NCBI GenBank assembly: GCA_017459675.1
Contig: JAFUCM010000027.1
Span: forward strand, 1 to 34,124
DNA length: 34,124 nucleotides
From: Eubacterium sp.
Lineage (GTDB): Bacteria; Bacillota; Clostridia; Lachnospirales; Lachnospiraceae
Direction: 5' to 3'
This document shows positions 3 to 8,414 of this stretch, in pieces (the stretch's first letter is position 1; each line of letters starts with the position of its first letter). The position numbers and the translations under genes are program-made. The notes beneath the pieces are model-generated. The model was not told the origin of the DNA and did not search any database. It saw only the letters and a program-made list of their open reading frames with translations.

Positions 3-51
3 ATTTCCACAGCAGCGAATTCCACCTGAGCTGCGTGGAAATTGCATCCTG
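3..51. repeat. Hairpin repeat, copy 1 (left part may be cut by the window edge)
   Basis: Two stacked stems, positions 3-10 with 35-42 and 12-16 with 30-34, enclose the 13-nt loop GAATTCCACCTGA (17-29), followed by GCATCCTG. The same loop and tail recur inside the scrA-scrB gap (6224-6273). Of seven base differences between the copies, six form three compensatory pairs, so base pairing is conserved while sequence drifts. It lies just downstream of the tex stop codon. Function unknown; it could be a mobile hairpin, an mRNA 3'-end structure or a small RNA domain. Confidence 0.75.
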
Positions 52-58
52 CTATCAC

Positions 59-80
59 GGACGGAGCCAGAGAACCGTCC
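59..80. repeat. Small GGACGG/CCGTCC hairpin downstream of tex
   Basis: GGACGG (59-64) and CCGTCC (75-80) form a 6-bp stem with a 10-nt loop, directly beside the hairpin repeat. On the minus strand this reads as a GGGGACGGTTCT-type sequence, which I recall as a dispersed motif in Clostridia, but that cannot be verified here. There is no T-tract on either side, so it is not a clear terminator for tex. Confidence 0.4.
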
Positions 81-98
81 CCTGTCTCCCTTGTCTCC

Positions 99-2393
99 TC
101 ACAGCTTCATCGACAGCCCGGTCCGCTTGCGCTTCACATCGACCGAGATTACCTTCACTTCCACGACGTCTCCGACGCTGACGACTTCCAGCGGGTGTTT
201 GACGAATTTCTTATTGGACATCTGTGAGATGTGTACCAGGCCGTCCTGGTGCACGCCGATGTCGACAAATGCGCCGAAGTCGATGACGTTGCGGACGGTT
301 CCCTTGAGGATCATGCCTTCTTTCAGGTCTTCGATCTCAAGGACGTCGCTGCGCAGCACCGGTTTGGGCATGTCGGCACGCGGGTCGCGGCCGGGCTTCA
401 TGAGTTCTTTGATGTTGTCGCGCAGGGTGATTTCACCGATGCCGAGGATCTGCGCCAGCTGTGCCGCATCCGGGCCGGCCTGTTTCGCTGTGCTGTCGGC
501 ATCTGCCCCGTCATCTTTGCCGGCTGTAGCTGCCCCGCTGCCCTTGCCGGATTTTCCGTTCGTATCCGTCCCGCCGGCCTTGCCGGATTTTCCGGCACGT
601 TCCATCTCACGGATCACTTCGGACAGCCGCCTGTTTTCTTTTCCTGCCAGCACGTCTTCCAGCTTCAGGCCCAGCAGCTCCAGCAGGCGCTTCATCGCGT
701 CATATGCCTCCGGGTGGACAGCTGTCGCATCGAGCGGCTCTTTGCCGCCGGCGATCCGCATAAATCCGGCACACTGCTCGAATGCCTTCGGCCCGAGCTT
801 CGGCACTTTGAGCAGTTCTCTGCGGGATTGGAAGCGGCCGTTTTCCTCGCGGTAGGCCACGATGTTTTTTGCAATCGGCTTGGAAATGCCGGAAATGTAT
901 TCCATCAGCGGTGCGGACGCGGTGTTCAGATCCACGCCGACGCGGTTGACGCAGTCTTCGACGACGCCGCCGAGGGCGCTGCCGAGTTTTTTCTGGTTCA
1001 TGTCATGCTGGTACTGGCCGACACCGATGGATTTCGGGTCGATCTTGACCAGCTCGGCCAGCGGATCCTGTACGCGGCGCGCGATGGATGCGGCGCTGCG
1101 CTGTCCCACATCAAATTCCGGAAATTCTTCGGTTGCCAGCTTGCTGGCGGAGTAAACAGACGCCCCCGCCTCATTGGTGATGACGTACTGCACCTTTGCC
1201 GAAATGGTCTTCAGGTATTCTGCGATAAACTGCTCGGATTCGCGGGACGCGGTGCCGTTGCCGACCGAAATCAGTGAAATATTGTATTTGGAAATGAATT
1301 TTGTCAGCACGGCGCGGGCGTCTGCCTGTTTCTTCGCGTTGGTCGGCGCCGTCGGATAAATGACATCGGTATCGATGACTTTGCCGGTCTCATCCACGAC
1401 TGCCAGCTTGCAGCCCGTGCGGAATGCCGGATCCCAGCCCAGGACGACCTGCCCGGAAATGGGCGGCTGCATCAGGAGCTGCTCCAGATTCTTGCCGAAG
1501 ACCTTGATCGCGCCGTCCTCGGCTGTCTCCGTCAGCTCATTGCGGATCTCGCGCTCGATCGCCGGCGCAATCAGACGCTTGTAGCTGTCTGCGATCACGG
1601 CCTGCAGGACCGGCGTCGTAAACGGATTGTTTCTTTTGATAATGTTGTGAGCGAGAAAACGATGTACCATCTCCTCATCCACCTGAATTTTCACCGTCAG
1701 TGCCTTTTCCGCCTCACCGCGGTTGATCGCCAGCACGCGGTGGCCCGGAATTTTCGCGACGGCTTCCTGATGGTCATAGTACATCGAATAGACACCATTT
1801 TCCTCCGCATCCTTTGCCGCGGCCGTCACCAGAATGCCGGTCCGGCGGGTGTGATTGCGGATGCCGTGACGGTATTCGGCATTGTCGGAGATTTCTTCTG
1901 CGATGATGTCCGACGCGCCGGCAATGGCCTCAGCTGCGTCTGCGACACCTTTTTCTTCCGAAATGTATGCTGCCGCGGCTTCCTCCAGCGGCTGATCTGT
2001 CTCCTGCGCCAGGATCAGATCCGCCAGCGGCTGCAGCCCTTTCTCAACCGCGATCGTCGCGCGGGTGCGCCGTTTCGGCCGGTACGGCCGGTACAGATCC
2101 TCCAGCACGACCATCGTCTCCGCCTTCTCAATGGCTGCCGCCAGTTCCGGCGTCAGCTTTCCCTGCTCCTCGATGGTTCCGAGCACCTGTGCCTTCTTCT
2201 CCTCCAGATTGCGCAGGTATGTCAGACGTTCGAACAGGTTGCGGAGCACTTCGTCATTGAGTGCGCCGGTTGCTTCTTTTCTATAGCGTGCGATGAAGGG
2301 AATGGTATTTCCCTCGTCAATCAGTTTCACCGCCGCTTCTGCCTGCTGCGGCCGGATCTCCAGCTCCGCAGCAAGGGTTTTGATAATGTCCAT
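99..2393 (-). CDS. tex: Tex-family RNA-binding transcription accessory protein
   Basis: The 764-residue cytoplasmic protein has the full Tex layout. The N-terminal helical region includes a motif beginning NTIPFIARYRKEATGAL. A central YqgF/RNase H-like domain (around residues 320-450, VVLGWDPAFRTGCKLAVVDE) follows, then helix-hairpin-helix repeats (around 490-560), and a C-terminal S1 domain (around 690-764, ILKGTVRNVIDFGAFVDIG). Tex proteins bind nucleic acid and affect transcription and gene expression broadly; the exact role is poorly defined. Residues about 601-642 are a Gly/Lys/Ala/Asp-rich low-complexity insert between the HhH and S1 regions, absent from typical Tex proteins of about 720 residues. 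The ATG at 2393 is preceded by AAAGGA. The gene appears monocistronic, divergent from the lipoprotein gene. Confidence 0.96.
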   Translation of the reverse strand: MDIIKTLAAELEIRPQQAEAAVKLIDEGNTIPFIARYRKEATGALNDEVLRNLFERLTYLRNLEEKKAQVLGTIEEQGKLTPELAAAIEKAETMVVLEDLYRPYRPKRRTRATIAVEKGLQPLADLILAQETDQPLEEAAAAYISEEKGVADAAEAIAGASDIIAEEISDNAEYRHGIRNHTRRTGILVTAAAKDAEENGVYSMYYDHQEAVAKIPGHRVLAINRGEAEKALTVKIQVDEEMVHRFLAHNIIKRNNPFTTPVLQAVIADSYKRLIAPAIEREIRNELTETAEDGAIKVFGKNLEQLLMQPPISGQVVLGWDPAFRTGCKLAVVDETGKVIDTDVIYPTAPTNAKKQADARAVLTKFISKYNISLISVGNGTASRESEQFIAEYLKTISAKVQYVITNEAGASVYSASKLATEEFPEFDVGQRSAASIARRVQDPLAELVKIDPKSIGVGQYQHDMNQKKLGSALGGVVEDCVNRVGVDLNTASAPLMEYISGISKPIAKNIVAYREENGRFQSRRELLKVPKLGPKAFEQCAGFMRIAGGKEPLDATAVHPEAYDAMKRLLELLGLKLEDVLAGKENRRLSEVIREMERAGKSGKAGGTDTNGKSGKGSGAATAGKDDGADADSTAKQAGPDAAQLAQILGIGEITLRDNIKELMKPGRDPRADMPKPVLRSDVLEIEDLKEGMILKGTVRNVIDFGAFVDIGVHQDGLVHISQMSNKKFVKHPLEVVSVGDVVEVKVISVDVKRKRTGLSMKL

Positions 2394-2456
2394 AGTGATT
2401 AGATTCCTTTCTTTTCCTGAAAAAACAGTTTATCACGGATTCCACTATGAGGCAAT

Positions 2457-2485
2457 TTGCACTTTTGGTAAGGATGCTTTACAAT
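2457..2485 (+). promoter_or_regulatory. Sigma-A-type promoter for the lipoprotein gene
   Basis: TTGCAC (2457-2462), a 17-bp spacer and TACAAT (2480-2485) lie about 110 bp upstream of the lipoprotein start. The left arm of a long inverted repeat begins at the next base, so the transcript start would fall within that arm. Confidence 0.65.
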
Positions 2486-2567
2486 GTGATGATATCAGGG
2501 TCAGGGAGCCCGGACGCGATGCATTTATGCAATTGCGGACACGGCGCATTGACCCGGATATCATCAC
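2486..2567. promoter_or_regulatory. Long inverted repeat in the lipoprotein 5' leader
   Basis: Arms 2486-2503 and 2550-2567 are complementary over 18 positions with one mismatch (GTGATGATATC and GGGTCA pairing with TGACCC and GATATCATCAC). They enclose 46 nt. The repeat abuts the -10 box, so it may be an operator, or the mRNA may begin with a large hairpin. No known riboswitch is recognised. Confidence 0.6.
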
Positions 2568-2594
2568 ACCATATATCCAATTATGAGGTTTATC

Positions 2595-3236
2595 ATGAAA
2601 CGAGCTTTGATCTTACTGATCACTTTATTATCTCTGTTAATTGCAGCCTGCGGTACTGCCGCATCCGGCAGTACCAAAAATGAAACCGCTCCGTCGGGTC
2701 CGGAATCCGGAACATCGGCCGGATCCGCGGCTGAATCGGCTGCATCCGTGACTGAATCGGCTGCATCCGTGACTGAACCGGCTGCGTCCGTGACTGAATC
2801 GGCCGATTCTGCCGCATCCGCGGTCCCGGACGAAAACACAGCCGCCGCTTCCGCCTCCGACATCACGATTTCCGATGTCGATGCAGGTCTGAGCGTGGTT
2901 CTCACTGAGATTATGGATCAGGTACACCCGGGCGAGGCCGGATCCAGCCTCAAATCTGCGCAGGCCGCGGCGGATGCACTCGATTTTGCACTCGGCACCG
3001 ACCTGGATGCGGAGATGATCGCAGCCATGACCTATGCTTACTATGATTCTCTTCACGAATCTGCAAAAGATGAATTTCCGGAACAGCTTCAGCTTCTGGA
3101 TGAGACGCTGGAAACGCTCCGGACTGCCGAAGGTGAATCGCTGCTGACAGATGCCGGCATTTCCGATTCATCGTATCCCTGGACAGACGAGGCATTTGAA
3201 CGCGCGGAAGCGATCGCACAGGCCTGCAGCAACTAA
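2595..3236 (+). CDS. Putative secreted lipoprotein, low-complexity Ser/Ala-rich N-terminus
   Basis: The 213-residue product starts with a lipoprotein signal, MKRALILLITLLSLLIAACG; the lipobox is LIAAC, so the mature lipid-modified Cys is residue 19. I chose ATG 2595 over the in-frame ATG at 2583 because GAGG (2585-2588) is correctly spaced before 2595 and the signal peptide begins there. After the Cys comes a disordered Ser/Ala/Thr/Glu tether containing three copies of the heptapeptide AASVTES. It is followed by an acidic helical domain of about 130 residues (VVLTEIMDQVHPGEAGSS onward) that I do not recognise. The YcxB-like gene follows 14 bp later, probably co-transcribed. Function unknown. 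Confidence 0.85.
   Translation: MKRALILLITLLSLLIAACGTAASGSTKNETAPSGPESGTSAGSAAESAASVTESAASVTEPAASVTESADSAASAVPDENTAAASASDITISDVDAGLSVVLTEIMDQVHPGEAGSSLKSAQAAADALDFALGTDLDAEMIAAMTYAYYDSLHESAKDEFPEQLQLLDETLETLRTAEGESLLTDAGISDSSYPWTDEAFERAEAIAQACSN
2739..2801 (+). repeat. Three tandem 21-bp units in the lipoprotein gene
   Basis: Units at 2739-2759, 2760-2780 and 2781-2801 differ by only one or two bases and encode the heptapeptide AASVTE(S/P). A partial unit precedes them. Near identity at the DNA level suggests recent slippage. The unit is a multiple of three, so copy-number changes would keep the frame and vary the tether length. Confidence 0.9.
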
Positions 3237-3250
3237 AAAGGAGTTGTCCC

Positions 3251-3736
3251 ATGAATTTCCACAAACCCCTTTATGAAACAACTACCGTTATCACACTGGA
3301 CGAATTCCGCAAGCTCAATCACGCGCTCTCCAACCGCCGCACGATGGCTGCCGTGATTCTTCTGATTGAGGCCGTGCTCGCCGGCCTGCTGGTCTTCTCG
3401 ATCCGCAGCCACAACCGCAGTTCGATCCAGCTCTATGTCATCATGCTGATCCTGCTGCCGGCGATTTCCTGGTTTATCCCGCGCTACATGGAGCGGCGGA
3501 TGTATCTGGCAAATGAGACCGCCCACAATATGGTCATGAAAACGGAATTTTACGAAGACCATCTCGAGCAGCACAGTCTGCGCGGCCACACTTCTGTAAA
3601 ATACACCGACCTGCAGAGAATCATAGAGACCAGCACGAATTTCTACATGCTGGTCTCCAAAACACAAAGTATTATCATTGTAAAAGATCACTGTCATCCG
3701 AAGCTGATTCAGTTTATTCATGAAATGATGAAATAA
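3251..3736 (+). CDS. YcxB-like membrane protein
   Basis: The 161-residue product has two adjacent membrane segments (about residues 34-52, VILLIEAVLAGLLVFSI, and 61-78, YVIMLILLPAISWFI). A soluble C-terminal domain follows (about 95-160) with the pattern FYEDHLEQHSLRGHTSVKYTDL and a late IIIVKDH strand. This arrangement matches the YcxB-like family, whose function is unknown. The ATG follows AAAAAGGAG. The gene lies 14 bp downstream of the lipoprotein gene and its last 23 bp overlap the convergent scrK 3' end, so the two converging transcripts are complementary there. Confidence 0.75.
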   Translation: MNFHKPLYETTTVITLDEFRKLNHALSNRRTMAAVILLIEAVLAGLLVFSIRSHNRSSIQLYVIMLILLPAISWFIPRYMERRMYLANETAHNMVMKTEFYEDHLEQHSLRGHTSVKYTDLQRIIETSTNFYMLVSKTQSIIIVKDHCHPKLIQFIHEMMK

Positions 3737-4673
3737 CTGCCTCGACGGCTTCCTTCGACGGCATCGCCGGAATGGCACCGCGTTTCTGTACACACAGACC
3801 CGCAACCGCATTTGCAAAGCGCAGCATTGTCTGCGCTTTTTCCATATCCAGATCTTCCGGCTTCCAGCTGTTGGAGGCAAACTGGTACAGAATGCCGCCC
3901 CAGAAGGAATCACCGGCGCCGGTCGTATCGACCAGCTCGCATTTCATCGCGGGCTCCTGCGCGCTGACGGATGCTGTTTTCAGCAGCGCGCCGTCTCCGC
4001 CGCACGTCACAACGACGCATTTAACGCCCGCCGCCAGGAGGCGGACTGCCGCCTCGTCCGGGTCGGATGCATCCGTGAGCAGATCACATTCCTCATCGGA
4101 GATTTTCATGATATCGACATATGGAATCGCTGCGCGCATTTCGCGGATCGCGGCCTCCCGGCTCTGCCAGAGCGGGGCGCGGTAATTCGGATCGTAGGAA
4201 ATCAGCGCACCGGCTTCCTTTGCGGTTTTCACCGCTGCATATGTCGCGCTTCTGGCCGGCTCATCGGTCAGAGACAGCGAGCCGAAGTGGAAGATCTTCG
4301 TCTGTTTCAGCAGATCCTCGTTCAGTTCCTCCGGTTTCAGCTGTGTATCGGCGCCGGGTTTTCTGGCGAAGGAGAAGCTGCGCTCTCCATTCTGCAGTGC
4401 GACAAACGCCAGCGTGGTAAATACATCCGGATCGCTGATCAGATTTGCCGTGTTGATCTCCAGGCCCTCCAGCACACCGCGCAAATAGGCACCGTGCATG
4501 TCATTTCCGACCTTTCCGATAAATGCCGTCCGGCAGCCCAGCTTCGAGAGAGCCGCCAGCACATTTGCCGGGGCGCCGCCCGGGTTCTGCTCGAACAGCG
4601 CGCGTCCTGCCTCGCTCACGCCGCAGGGCGTAAAATCGATCAATAATTCCCCCAGTGCTGTTACATCATACAT
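3714..4673 (-). CDS. scrK: Fructokinase, PfkB family
   Basis: The 319-residue cytoplasmic sugar kinase phosphorylates fructose, here the fructose released by the sucrose-6-phosphate hydrolase encoded just upstream. Visible family features are the N-terminal GELLIDF, the sugar-binding NPGGAPANVLAALSKLG stretch (30-46) and the C-terminal DTTGAGDSFWGG signature with the catalytic base Asp255. Length is normal for the family. The ATG at 4673 follows GGGAGG. It is the third gene of scrA-scrB-scrK, separated from scrB by 96 bp that contain a strong hairpin. Substrate assignment rests on operon context; PfkB kinases for other sugars look similar. Confidence 0.92.
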   Translation of the reverse strand: MYDVTALGELLIDFTPCGVSEAGRALFEQNPGGAPANVLAALSKLGCRTAFIGKVGNDMHGAYLRGVLEGLEINTANLISDPDVFTTLAFVALQNGERSFSFARKPGADTQLKPEELNEDLLKQTKIFHFGSLSLTDEPARSATYAAVKTAKEAGALISYDPNYRAPLWQSREAAIREMRAAIPYVDIMKISDEECDLLTDASDPDEAAVRLLAAGVKCVVVTCGGDGALLKTASVSAQEPAMKCELVDTTGAGDSFWGGILYQFASNSWKPEDLDMEKAQTMLRFANAVAGLCVQKRGAIPAMPSKEAVEAVISSFHE

Positions 4674-4720
4674 GAATCGTCCTCCCTTCCGCCGGCGTTG
4701 ATCGTTCTGCCAAAGTCCTG

Positions 4721-4765
4721 CTGCAGTGCTGCCGGCCGGCTGATACGGATCCGGCAGCGCTGCAG
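4721..4765. other. Intercistronic hairpin between scrB and scrK
   Basis: CTGCAGTGCTGCCGG (4721-4735) pairs with CCGGCAGCGCTGCAG (4751-4765) over 15 positions with one non-Watson-Crick position, and the loop is 15 nt. No U-tract follows on the operon strand, so it is not a standard terminator. A role in mRNA processing or segment stability is the likeliest reading. Confidence 0.65.
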
Positions 4766-4769
4766 TCGT

Positions 4770-6164
4770 TCAGTATTGTTCATTGACCGGCAGCGCCTTC
4801 ATCTGCCAAGCGGTAATTTCCGCACCCGGGCATGCAAATGCCACAGACAGTGACCGGTCCGCTCTGTCATCCGGATCTTCCGGATAAAACCGGGATGCAA
4901 ACACAATCGTCCCGTCATTGCAGTAAATCTCGAGCATGGAGCGGTCGATCAGCAGACGCAGATCCTGAATTGCATCCACCTTCACGCGGCGCGCACCGCG
5001 GCCACATCCGTCTGCCTCTGTCATATTCAGTTCCAGAACGCCGCCGGCAAATGCCAGCGTCACACCGTCACCAATGGCAATGTTCCATGCAGCTGACGGG
5101 TCTGCGAAACGGATTTCAACATCTCCGGCCGCGTCCGGCAGTACCAGTGTGCCGTCCGGCGCAATTGTCTGTTCGTCGAAACGGAGGGATTTGAGTTCCT
5201 CCACCGGTGTCTGCGTCACGACACCATTTTTCACCTGTAATACACGCGGCACCGTCAGGCAGTTTTCCCAGCCGCGCACATCTGTCGGATTGCCGTACGG
5301 CTTATCCGGAAGGCCTGCCCAGCCGATGAACAGGCGTCTTCCCTGCTCGTCCACAAAACTCTGCGGCGCGTAAAAATCATGACCGTAATCCCACTCTCTG
5401 AATGCAGAAAATGACTGTTCCCCGCGCAGATCGCCCTGCATGATAAAGTAACCTGCCTGATGGTTGTTCTGATAACGGAATTCCTCTGCCTCCATGCCCT
5501 GCGGGCAGATCGAGAGTACCTGCTCACCGTCCAGTTCAAAATAATCCGGACACTCCCACATGTAGCCAAAGGGCTCCTCTGTGGCAATGATCTTCACCAG
5601 CTTCCAGTCATAAAGATCTTCACTCTCATAGAGCAGAACCGACCCGCTGTCATCGTTCATCCGCGCGCCCTGCACCATGTAATAGATGCCGTCCTGCTCC
5701 CACACCTTCGGATCGCGCACATGGCGTGTGCATTCTGCCGGATAATCCTTCGTACCGAAAAGTACCTGCTTCCCGCTGTACGTTTTTCCGTCCTTCGTCC
5801 GGACAAGAATCGTGTTGCTCTCACGGCCATCGTGAATATAGTCATAATCACCGGCCAGTTTGATATTTCCGGTATAGTACAGCCAGATTTCATTTTCATG
5901 GATAAACGCACTGCCGGAATAACAGCCGTCACGGTCCGGTTCTTCCGGCCAGAACGGAACGCCCTCAAAATCCAGATGAATCAGATCGGGCCCCGCATAG
6001 TGCCCCCAGGTCCGGTGCTTCTTTCCATCCGGCCCGGGCGTATTCGGCGCATACTGAAAATAAATATGATATTGGCCATTTACCTGACACAGCCCGTTCG
6101 GGTCATTCAGCCACCCGTCCGGCGGCATCAGATGATAGGCCAGACGCCAGTTGTCTCTTGCCAT
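4770..6164 (-). CDS. scrB: Sucrose-6-phosphate hydrolase, glycoside hydrolase family 32
   Basis: The 464-residue cytoplasmic enzyme splits sucrose-6-phosphate into glucose-6-phosphate and fructose. All three GH32 acidic motifs are present: WLNDPNG with nucleophile Asp21, HVRDPKVW with the transition-state Asp, and WECPDYFEL with the acid/base Glu. The five-bladed propeller is followed by the family's C-terminal beta-sandwich (last ~130 residues). I prefer ATG 6164, which follows AGAGGGAG with good spacing; the longer frame to 6185 would start at TTG. It lies in the sucrose operon between scrA and scrK. Confidence 0.95.
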   Translation of the reverse strand: MARDNWRLAYHLMPPDGWLNDPNGLCQVNGQYHIYFQYAPNTPGPDGKKHRTWGHYAGPDLIHLDFEGVPFWPEEPDRDGCYSGSAFIHENEIWLYYTGNIKLAGDYDYIHDGRESNTILVRTKDGKTYSGKQVLFGTKDYPAECTRHVRDPKVWEQDGIYYMVQGARMNDDSGSVLLYESEDLYDWKLVKIIATEEPFGYMWECPDYFELDGEQVLSICPQGMEAEEFRYQNNHQAGYFIMQGDLRGEQSFSAFREWDYGHDFYAPQSFVDEQGRRLFIGWAGLPDKPYGNPTDVRGWENCLTVPRVLQVKNGVVTQTPVEELKSLRFDEQTIAPDGTLVLPDAAGDVEIRFADPSAAWNIAIGDGVTLAFAGGVLELNMTEADGCGRGARRVKVDAIQDLRLLIDRSMLEIYCNDGTIVFASRFYPEDPDDRADRSLSVAFACPGAEITAWQMKALPVNEQY

Positions 6165-6183
6165 AGTTTTCTCCCTCTTCTTC

Positions 6184-6306
6184 AAATCGGGGTTTGTAGA
6201 ACTCGCGCCTGTATCAGGAGGCCTTTTCTAAAGCGGCGAATTCCACCTGAGCCGCGTAGAAAATGGCATCCTGTAAAACAGGCGCGTACCCGACAAACTC
6301 CGATTT
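6184..6306. other. 123-nt imperfect palindrome between scrA and scrB; hairpin repeat copy 2
   Basis: The gap folds as one long rod. AAATCGGGGTTTGT (6184-6197) pairs with 6293-6306 (13 of 14, the exception being a G-T pair). CGCGCCTG (6204-6211) pairs with CAGGCGCG (6279-6286), CAGGA (6215-6219) with TCCTG (6269-6273), and GCC with GGC. At the tip is the two-stem hairpin (6224-6263) shared with the window start, with the same 13-nt loop at 6238-6250. The right end overlaps the scrA stop codon. It is not a terminator, having no U-tract. Confidence 0.8.
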
Positions 6307-8287
6307 ATCGCACCTCAATTACCGGCTCACCCGGCTCTACCGGACCGGTCTTAATACCTTTAACTTCAGCGTAATCATCGGTATTCGTGACGATGATCGG
6401 TGTATCAATCTTGTAGCCCGCAGCCTGGATGCCGGCAAGGTCAACTTCCAGCAGAAGCTGTCCCTTCTTCACCTCATCGCCGCTGTTCGCATGTGCCGTA
6501 AAGTACTTGCCTTCGAGCTGTACGGTATCGATACCGACATGAATCAGAACTTCGACATCGTCTTTGGATGTCAGGCCGAGTGCGTGTTTGGTGTCATAGA
6601 GCAGATCCAGAGAGCCGTCGAACGGCGCGTAGATCTTGCCGTCTTCCGGAATGATTCCGATGCCGGAACCAAGTACCTCTGCCGCAAATGTCGGATCCTG
6701 AATCTCAGCGGACGGAATTGCTTTGCCTTTTGCAGGCGCATAAATGATCTTCGGCTCGCCGGCAGCTTCTGTGCCGGAGGCTGCATCCGCCTCTGATGCT
6801 GCAGCAGCACCTGCCGCAGCTGCAGCGCCTGCTGCTACCGTCTCACCAACTGCGGTAGTTGTCTTTTCTTCTGATTTTTTGAGCCGTTCCAGTTCCTCTG
6901 CCGGATCCTTATACAGAATAAAGGAAATTGCAAATGCCGCCACGAAGGAAACCAGAAGGATCAGTGCGTAAGAAAGGGTAAATCCCGGTGTGATCAGGAA
7001 ACCGAACAGACCGGTTACACCATAAGCCGTCGCGCCGACACCTGTCAGAGTGGCAACCATACCGCCGAGTCCGCCGCCGATGCAGCCCGCGATAAACGGG
7101 GTGCGGTAGCGCACGTTGACACCGAAGATTGCCGGCTCAGTAATGCCGAGGAACGCGGACAGCGAGGACGGCATTGCCACGGATTTGGTCTTCGGGTTCT
7201 TTGATTTGAAAGAAACTGCCATTGCCGCGGCACCCTGTGCGACGTTTGCCGCGGTTGCAACCGGCATCCAGGTATTCAGGCCGCCGGCGCCGAGCATCTG
7301 TGCCTCGATCATGTTGTACATATGATGGAAGCCCGCAACGACTGTAAATGCATACAGGAAGCCGACCAGCAGTCCTCCGATTCCAAACGGCAGTCCGATC
7401 AGTGCCTTCGCCGCTGCCAGAATCCATCCCTCAACCGTTGAGAAGACCGGTCCGATCACTGCGATGGTAAGAAGGCCTGTAACCAGTACCGTTACCAGCG
7501 GTGTGACAAAGAGATCCAGCATTTCCGGAACTGCCTTGTGCAGCTTCTTCTCAATCCAGCACATGAAAAGAATTGCAATGATAACCGGGATAACGTGGCC
7601 CTGATAGCCGAGGTTTGTGACACTGTAGCCGCCGACGTGGAAGAATTCCTTGATCGCCGGGTTCAGAATCATGTTGCCGGTTCCGTCATCGATATAATGC
7701 GTCCACGCATTGACCAGCGACGGGTGTACCATGATAAATCCGATGACCGCTGCCAGGAACTGGTTGCCGCCGAATTTCTTTGCCGCACTGATCGCGATCA
7801 GGATCGGCAGCATCGAGAGTGCCGCACCTGCAAACAGATTGATAATTTCATAGAGTGAACTGTTTGCCATACTCGGCCAGAGCTGGGTCATGCCGCCCAG
7901 AAGGCCGTTCAGAAGTCCGGATGCAACGATTGCCGGAATGATCGGAACGAAAATATCACCGAGTGTCTTGATTGCCCGGAAGAACGGATTCTGCTTCGAT
8001 GCAGCTGCCTGCTTGACATCCTCCTTGGACCCCTCCGAAACACCTGCCATTTTAATAAACTCATCGTAAACCTTATTGACCGCACCGGTCCCGATGATGA
8101 CCTGAATCTGTCCGGATGCCTCAAAACATCCTTTTACGCCATCGACATCCTCGACCGCTGCCTTGTCCAGCTTACTGTTGTCCGCGATAACCAGGCGAAG
8201 ACGCGTCGCACAATGTGCCGCTGAAATTACATTCCCCGGTCCGCCGACGTGATCCAGCACGCCCTGCGCTGTCTGCTTGTAATCCAT
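6305..8287 (-). CDS. scrA: Sucrose-type PTS transporter, EIIBCA
   Basis: The 660-residue membrane permease takes up sucrose while phosphorylating it. The domain order is EIIB (1-85, phosphocysteine Cys26 in AAHCATRLRL), EIIC (about 105-455, around ten membrane segments) and EIIA (about 525-660, active His583 in VLIHVGIDTVQL). An Ala/Gly/Glu-rich linker of about 40 residues joins EIIC and EIIA. The start is ATG 8287 after AGGAGG; the longer frame to 8347 is upstream extension. As the first gene of the operon it has its own promoter and a ~120-nt leader. Sucrose specificity is inferred from scrB and scrK; trehalose and beta-glucoside permeases share the fold. No LacI-type or antiterminator gene lies in the window. 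Confidence 0.93.
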   Translation of the reverse strand: MDYKQTAQGVLDHVGGPGNVISAAHCATRLRLVIADNSKLDKAAVEDVDGVKGCFEASGQIQVIIGTGAVNKVYDEFIKMAGVSEGSKEDVKQAAASKQNPFFRAIKTLGDIFVPIIPAIVASGLLNGLLGGMTQLWPSMANSSLYEIINLFAGAALSMLPILIAISAAKKFGGNQFLAAVIGFIMVHPSLVNAWTHYIDDGTGNMILNPAIKEFFHVGGYSVTNLGYQGHVIPVIIAILFMCWIEKKLHKAVPEMLDLFVTPLVTVLVTGLLTIAVIGPVFSTVEGWILAAAKALIGLPFGIGGLLVGFLYAFTVVAGFHHMYNMIEAQMLGAGGLNTWMPVATAANVAQGAAAMAVSFKSKNPKTKSVAMPSSLSAFLGITEPAIFGVNVRYRTPFIAGCIGGGLGGMVATLTGVGATAYGVTGLFGFLITPGFTLSYALILLVSFVAAFAISFILYKDPAEELERLKKSEEKTTTAVGETVAAGAAAAAGAAAASEADAASGTEAAGEPKIIYAPAKGKAIPSAEIQDPTFAAEVLGSGIGIIPEDGKIYAPFDGSLDLLYDTKHALGLTSKDDVEVLIHVGIDTVQLEGKYFTAHANSGDEVKKGQLLLEVDLAGIQAAGYKIDTPIIVTNTDDYAEVKGIKTGPVEPGEPVIEVR

Positions 8288-8414
8288 AAAGTACCTCCTG
8301 TTCTTCCCTCTACTTTTTACGAGTAACCCGCGATGCACTGATGTCAACCACTCACATCTGTATAAACAGGCATCTCATATCCCGGCTCCTCTCCGAAACC
8401 AGAATATAGGCAAT

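Follow-up and report, generated by a model that had tools for sequence, protein, structure and literature searches.

As a rule, dispersed palindromes are conserved in the stem and variable in the remainder, and REPs have an irregularity at the tip. YPAL, ERIC, and nemis are MITE-like palindromes that are inserted beside stop codons and co-transcribed with the upstream gene, with a hairpin in the mRNA; in these families, to our knowledge, the sequence is conserved over the full length of the element. The Skipping-rope motif is a long hairpin with conserved positions. According to part of one published account (PMC3733652), REP families are sorted by their stems, loops, and a GTAG or CGTC tag, and the known dimers vary in the spacer. 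In human microbiomes, 250 palindromic candidate RNAs have been listed, of which 230 are predicted terminators and the rest are possibly REP, as given in the portion of that source used here (PMC8040213).

In this study, more than 100 hairpins of a gut/rumen bacterium, which have the same loop but different, self-matching stems and mostly lie just after the ends of genes, suggest a previously undescribed RNA signal that can also multiply in the manner of small mobile repeats. The starting point was an initial annotation of 34,124 nucleotides of DNA from Eubacterium sp. (the whole stretch analyzed, hereafter the window), which had reported a hairpin in two places, one of them inside a 123-nucleotide rod in a sucrose operon. 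On re-reading the sequence, we found the 13-nucleotide loop to be exact at both places (Table 1), which are the only ones in the window within two mismatches of it (0.93 expected by chance). The three compensatory base pairs are as described (A3-T42 versus T6224-A6263, C8-G37 versus T6229-A6258, and A14-T32 versus G6235-C6253), and the shared tail is present in both copies. The first position of the window is the end of a contig (G000:C99:1), so copy 1 has no outer left arm. The outer arms of the rod (6184-6212 and 6278-6306) have 79% complementarity, and the rod folds with an energy of -61.2 kcal/mol (z = -7.2; 0 of 200 shuffles were equally stable). The ORF coordinates agree that the rod overlaps the scrA stop codon and ends about 20 bp before the likely scrB ATG. 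The rod does lie in the sucrose operon, but the operon is not special: our catalogue has 110 intergenic sites in three species, of which this is a single one, and the rod is one outer module among several found in the family.

Table 1. Features of the window around the two hairpin copies.
Feature	Position	Strand	Remarks
Copy 1, class A inner hairpin with GCATCCTG tail	3..51	-	Cut by contig start; located past the tex stop codon; minus is the probable RNA strand
Near-invariant loop of copy 1	17..29	-	Plus strand GAATTCCACCTGA; probable RNA strand UCAGGUGGAAUUC
REP module GAGAACCGTCCCCTGTCTC	70..88	+	Flanks one subset (A1) of class A hairpins
Tex-like protein gene	99..2393	-	Upstream of copy 1 in the mRNA sense
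scrB-like GH32 sucrose hydrolase ORF	4770..6185	-	Likely ATG near 6164; Pfam supports GH32
123-nucleotide rod, A2 composite	6184..6306	-	Outer inverted repeat AAATCGGRGTTTGT... enclosing copy 2, between scrA and scrB
Copy 2, class A inner hairpin with GCATCCTG tail	6224..6273	-	Class A copy at the same place in G003
Near-invariant loop of copy 2	6238..6250	-	Exact loop match
scrA-like PTS EIIBCA	6305..8347	-	Stop codon overlaps the rod; Pfam supports PTS EIIBCA

The initial annotation knew of no named family with this loop, and our scans agree. With the whole Rfam 15 library, no bacterial family fell on the element and none reached its gathering score; there were only sub-threshold matches to microRNA-type hairpins. 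A full-text literature search, which covers few subscription papers, returned no recognized description of the loop. Near another copy of the repeat, Rfam identifies a glycine riboswitch above the gathering score (L007, 402-505, minus strand).

A genome-wide search for the loop placed the two window copies in a large family. With up to three mismatches, the 17-nucleotide core GCGAATTCCACCTGAGC occurs at 127 places in the source genome, G000 (62 in one contig orientation and 65 in the other), although this number may be somewhat inflated, as the assembly has a listed contamination of 6.85% and some copies are near-duplicates (e.g., L062 and L076). The same pattern read backwards occurs at just three places (2 + 1). 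Some copies lie at contig ends (e.g., C99:15, C130:109, C8:69, and C52:42); the repeat may break the assembly, and the arrays may be longer than seen. When we searched 61 genomes with a looser core and one mismatch, three were positive, all of one genus: G000 (103 places), G002 (22), and G003 (67). Two other members of the genus, G001 and G004 (85% and 90% complete), had no match to the looser core at one mismatch. A covariance model (R1) gave the same picture, with 120 matches in G000, 33 in G002, 99 in G003, and zero in G001 and G004. In a species-level collection, the carriers of the exact core that are named are Lachnospiraceae bacterium FE2018 and Eubacterium sp. RGIG2458, which hold 31 of the 76 exact-core stretches; among those of the other 45 that we inspected by eye, none had a long contiguous palindrome.

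Our catalogue contains 147 copies, after 45 of 192 motif hits were dropped because their flanks were short or their core had an ending other than TGAGC. The sequence of the right arm, read from the core outward, served to sort them into two classes by a simple rule. Class A (59 copies, both window copies included) has TTTCYAAAGCRGC / GCYGCGTRGAAA beside the loop, and many of its members are nested in outer inverted repeats, either REP modules GGAGACAGGGGACGGTTCTCTGTCTCC (subset A1) or AAATCGGGGTTTGT... arms (subset A2, which includes window copy 2). In class B (88 copies), the sequence near the loop is often TGTCTC... / ...GAGACA and the outer arms vary from copy to copy. A degenerate core (up to 4 mismatches in 13) lies within 70 nucleotides leftward of 32 of the 88 class B copies, and in 31 of these it is 40-51 nucleotides away; it was found in 14 of 270 control windows. 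Two hairpins have GAGTCGCGCGCGCAC... inserted at about the same point of the right arm (L193 near 10117 and L194 near 7192), a repeat within a repeat. At L273 (in G003, after a stop codon), half of a class B hairpin is joined to a REP module that replaces the second arm, with the pairing partly kept, which has the look of a naturally formed chimera between the two kinds of repeat.

The stems, which are 25-30 bp long, are private to each copy, and the loop is nearly fixed. Because copies were retrieved by the core alone, pairing between the arms is an independent test. With near-identical copies collapsed, a copy's own right arm was its best partner among all right arms for 63 of 77 class B copies and for 18 of 45 class A copies; in an earlier run confined to the source genome, this held for 45 of 74 copies. 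For class B, arms of the same copy pair with an energy of -37.6 kcal/mol, versus -17.0 kcal/mol for arms of different copies. At most class B arm positions beyond the tip, the commonest base accounts for under 60% of copies. In class A, the sequence of the inner arms is conserved. We considered whether class B arms might be nested REP hairpins and rejected this, since only 39% of 41 left arms fold alone at z < -1.

We aligned 65 class B copies from three species (alignment A1). Of the 77 collapsed class B copies, 12 were excluded from it by eye, several of them weakly paired, so the following figures lean upward: 84.9% of cells are paired, versus 60.3% in shuffled controls; there are 442 double-change cells, versus 133; double changes occur at 25 of 28 pairs (22.4 in shuffles); and the covariation is 0.598, versus 0.172 for shuffled and 0.115-0.154 for slid controls. 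Compensatory changes therefore exceed both kinds of control. Across species, 25 pairs of copies occupy orthologous sites. In these pairs, divergence amounts to 27 of 325 positions (8%) for the loop and about 25% for the arms, with the qualification that loop constancy, here as elsewhere, partly reflects how the copies were chosen (all were found by a core with up to three mismatches and a TGAGC end). Within each copy, 21.5 and 21.2 of 24 positions pair, versus 18.0 when the arms are combined across species. The initial annotation had named as the outcome against it just two copies, with no compensatory changes in relatives; neither is what we found.

Which strand would be the RNA? Among helix-internal mismatches on the motif strand, away from the tip, we counted 78 A.C and 24 G.T (p = 8e-8), although related copies, particularly those of class A, do not contribute to these counts in a fully independent way. 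Class B alone has 46 A.C and 13 G.T. Per copy, 49 are richer in A.C, 12 are richer in G.T, and 83 are equal. An A.C on the motif strand is a G.U on the other, so the GCUCAGGUGGAAUUCGC strand carries its defects as wobbles, and judging from this pattern it is probably the RNA. The position of neighboring genes points the same way. In our crude ORF map, the right-hand gene is antisense to the motif (that is, sense to GCUCAGGUGGAAUUCGC) for 76 of 96 placed copies (37 of 41 in class A and 39 of 55 in class B), and the median distance from the center of the loop to the end of that gene is 67 nucleotides for class A and 50 nucleotides for class B. Where genes are in tandem, 50 sites are in this direction and 16 have the opposite arrangement, a bias that is due to class A (26 versus 2; class B, 24 versus 14). 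Just 4 of the 96 placed sites are divergent. A hairpin lies about 10 nucleotides after the proS stop codon in three species; in G001 and G004, proS seems to have a different downstream gene. The strand emphasis of the initial annotation is thus probably reversed, with minus as the probable RNA strand in the window.

Some observations fit less well. For 16 of the 55 placed class B copies, the right-hand gene runs in the other direction, 37 of the 147 copies lie inside ORFs of the crude finder, and at site B17 the orientation differs between species, by eye. In 20 copies, both neighboring genes run with the motif strand; here A.C again outnumbers G.T (9 to 3), the opposite of what would be expected if the transcribed strand acted as RNA. 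In 16 divergent copies, there are 6 of each. Also, transcription-coupled C-to-T change on the coding strand would mimic the A.C excess without RNA selection. Overall, the A.C excess and the gene orientation support selection at the RNA level without proving it. They do argue against a DNA signal (an uptake, segregation, or nucleoid-protein site) in cruciform-forming repeats, which we consider very improbable: a dispersed, near-invariant 13-17-mer that is mostly intergenic and about equally frequent in both contig orientations would suit such a signal, but a double-stranded DNA site needs no private stem, and known uptake sequences have copy numbers well above that of this hairpin family.

The initial annotation had offered a structure under selection or a mobile palindrome as alternatives, and we find support for both: pairing is kept while sequence drifts, and class A is polymorphic between species. 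We located both flanks of 13 class A copies in stretches of G003, where the motif copy is missing from 7 and present in 6 (including window copy 2), and of 6 class A copies in stretches of G002, where the motif is present in none; the stretches were picked around copies, so these tallies are not fair retention rates. Empty-looking sites are L007, L026, L033, and L057 in G003 and L077 in G002, and at L083 and L027 there is only a lone REP in G003. By eye, a target-site duplication is at most 2 bp (TC) at L007 and is unclear at the other sites. Class B copies mostly have a partner with a diverged stem at the same place in relatives. Exceptions are L075, without a partner in G003, and the L083 array, without a partner in G002. 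At site B11, there is a class B copy in two species and a class A element in the third. The traits of MITEs, namely terminal inverted repeats (the outer arms of A2 and A1) and insertion polymorphism, are seen in class A only.

These data make it quite possible that the family is purely a mobile palindrome of the REPIN or MITE type. The tip would then be the DNA site of a transposase that acts on single-stranded hairpins, and the arms would stay complementary through template switching (palindrome correction) or because mobility is selected for. Besides the missing class A copies, this explanation has in its favor the REPIN-like placement of A1 copies between inverted REP modules and the tip irregularity that recurs at columns 24-27 of alignment A1, as in REPs. 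It is a serious rival, at the DNA level, to selection on RNA. Against it, a strand-neutral DNA mechanism predicts neither the excess of A.C over G.T nor the placement by stop codons; 6 of the 13 class A copies are common to G003; and the arrangement of class B is the reverse of that reported, in the part of the source relied on, for REP families, which are sorted by stems and tags and whose known dimers vary in the spacer (PMC3733652). Furthermore, the GAGAACCGTCCCCTGTCTC REP is found, with one mismatch, at 52 places in the source genome and 75 in G003 but at none in G002, which nevertheless has 33 hairpins by the covariance model, so the loop hairpin is independent of that REP.

The candidate transposases bear on the same question. 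Genes matching Y1_Tnp number 6, 5, and 3 in the three carrier genomes of the genus, with none in the two non-carriers, as a mobile palindrome would have it. We rejected a RAYT/IS200 link despite this tracking across five genomes, since 13 of the 14 Y1_Tnp loci that we checked lack the motif at up to three mismatches; the one exception (L178) has three. The five Y1 proteins that we inspected are, presumably, of the IS200 type. In two species of another genus (L291 in G374 and L292 in G032), a single Rpn/YhgA-like gene, which matches Transposase_31 at E = 3e-4, just under its cut-off, lies between two hairpins that have the same loop and very long stems. Another genome (G016) has 13 matches to this gene, one of them a short piece and one beside a decayed motif hairpin (L306). 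We rejected the gene as a general autonomous partner: at the 16 of 17 loci scanned, besides the flanked pair, only L306 of 14 has a motif hairpin (the decayed one), and the five genomes of the source genus have no match at E = 0.001. A viral origin was also rejected, as the two exact 17-mers in viral contigs are both without pairing arms. The rod has no match in phages or plasmids.

The same loop is found in three further genera of Lachnospiraceae. In covariance-model scans with stricter filters, in which weak matches are lost, four genomes outside the genus were matched among 299 of the family, one more (G374) among 392 of the order, and one more (G975) among 398 of the phylum. Hairpins in which CUCAG-N(3-5)-RAUUCG tops unrelated stems of at least about 20 bp are present in G016 (two), G032 (two, plus L282), G374 (two), and G315 (one). 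L282 (G032:C1:36056-36161) is unusual in that the loop halves, CTCAG and ATTCG, are split by an inserted hairpin of about 40 nucleotides, as if they formed an internal loop. We did not count L249 (in G014) or five hit rows from G975, in which the loop is absent and palindromes were matched by structure alone. In G975, which belongs to another family of the phylum, L285-L288 are near-perfect palindromes of about 35-48 bp per arm with the GGGGACGGTTC REP sequence. The exact core is less specific: among 397 genomes of the family, it occurs in 9 outside the genus (5 with the reversed control), and of those 9, strong pairing of the arms is seen in G315 alone.

Three hairpins from other genera (L248, L277, and L278) have an A-run before the stem and a T-run after it, as in bidirectional terminators, and some copies in the source genome (e.g., L070 and L068) have this form as well. 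Together with the position at the 3' ends of genes, this would fit ordinary intrinsic terminators whose loop is shared by descent only. We consider this unlikely. An A-run of at least four, at the position of the sense U-tract, is present in just 16 of 83 class B copies and 5 of 58 class A copies, so most copies lack the U-tract. Also, unconstrained descent gives neither a loop that diverges less than its arms at orthologous sites (with the qualification about copy selection given above) nor one that is recognizable across genera.

The explanation that we tentatively place first, at somewhat less than an even chance, is a 3'-UTR RNA hairpin with a recognized tip that was multiplied by REPIN- or MITE-like spread. 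The order in the mRNA would be the stop codon, a short gap, arm', GC-UCAGRURGAAUUC-GC, and arm. The stem would need only to pair, and its sequence could drift with compensation until it is private to each copy. Recognition of the tip by a trans-acting factor, most likely an RNA-binding protein, is the probable reason why the loop and its two closing pairs are nearly fixed. The role of the long duplex is probably to protect the 3' end of the mRNA or to define it. Some copies, which look like intrinsic terminators, might act as such; in operons such as scrA-scrB, the hairpin might be a segment-specific stabilizer or a processing site. Class A copies would multiply as non-autonomous REPIN- or MITE-like palindromes nested in other inverted repeats, and class B copies would stay and diverge in place after the spread. 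Mobility of this kind could account for the copy numbers in one genus. A broader proposal, which we regard as possible but doubtful, is that the CUCAG-N(3-5)-RAUUCG tip closed by a C-G pair is an undescribed RNA motif, conserved in at least four Lachnospiraceae genera on stems that have little except pairing in common, that marks many transcript 3' ends for a common putative RNA-binding factor. In one genus, it would have been carried along by mobile palindromes from few copies to more than 100, which together would form a 3'-UTR regulon spanning the genome.

Conservation of the loop alone, with compensatory rewriting of every stem, separates the two usual readings of such repeats, selfish DNA and functional RNA, and both are testable because the loop and the stem can be altered independently. 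If a factor does read the loop, then it would be a new RNA signal at 3' ends, in a bacterial family that is common in the gut and rumen.

Compared with described systems, the hairpins resemble intrinsic (Rho-independent) terminators in lying after a stop codon, in their free stem, and, in some copies, in the U-tract. They differ in the helix of about 25 pairs, the near-invariant 13-nucleotide loop, and the absence of a U-tract from most copies. The Skipping-rope motif and other RNA motifs from comparative genomics include similarly long hairpins, but no bacterial family in Rfam 15 matches the element. The named examples among the human-microbiome palindromic candidates are from Bacteroidetes, and none in the portion of the source considered has such a loop (PMC8040213). 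As in YPAL, ERIC, and nemis, the hairpins adjoin stop codons and would be in the mRNA of the upstream gene; in contrast to those families, class B keeps only the tip. With REP, REPIN, and BIME elements, they share high copy number, mostly intergenic location, imperfect palindromes, and inverted doublets, and A1 copies lie between inverted REP modules. We saw no GTAG or CGTC tag by eye in the per-position arm table and, across the 14 Y1_Tnp loci, no RAYT beside the element. Above all, the private stem and near-invariant loop of class B are the reverse of the arrangement in REP families.
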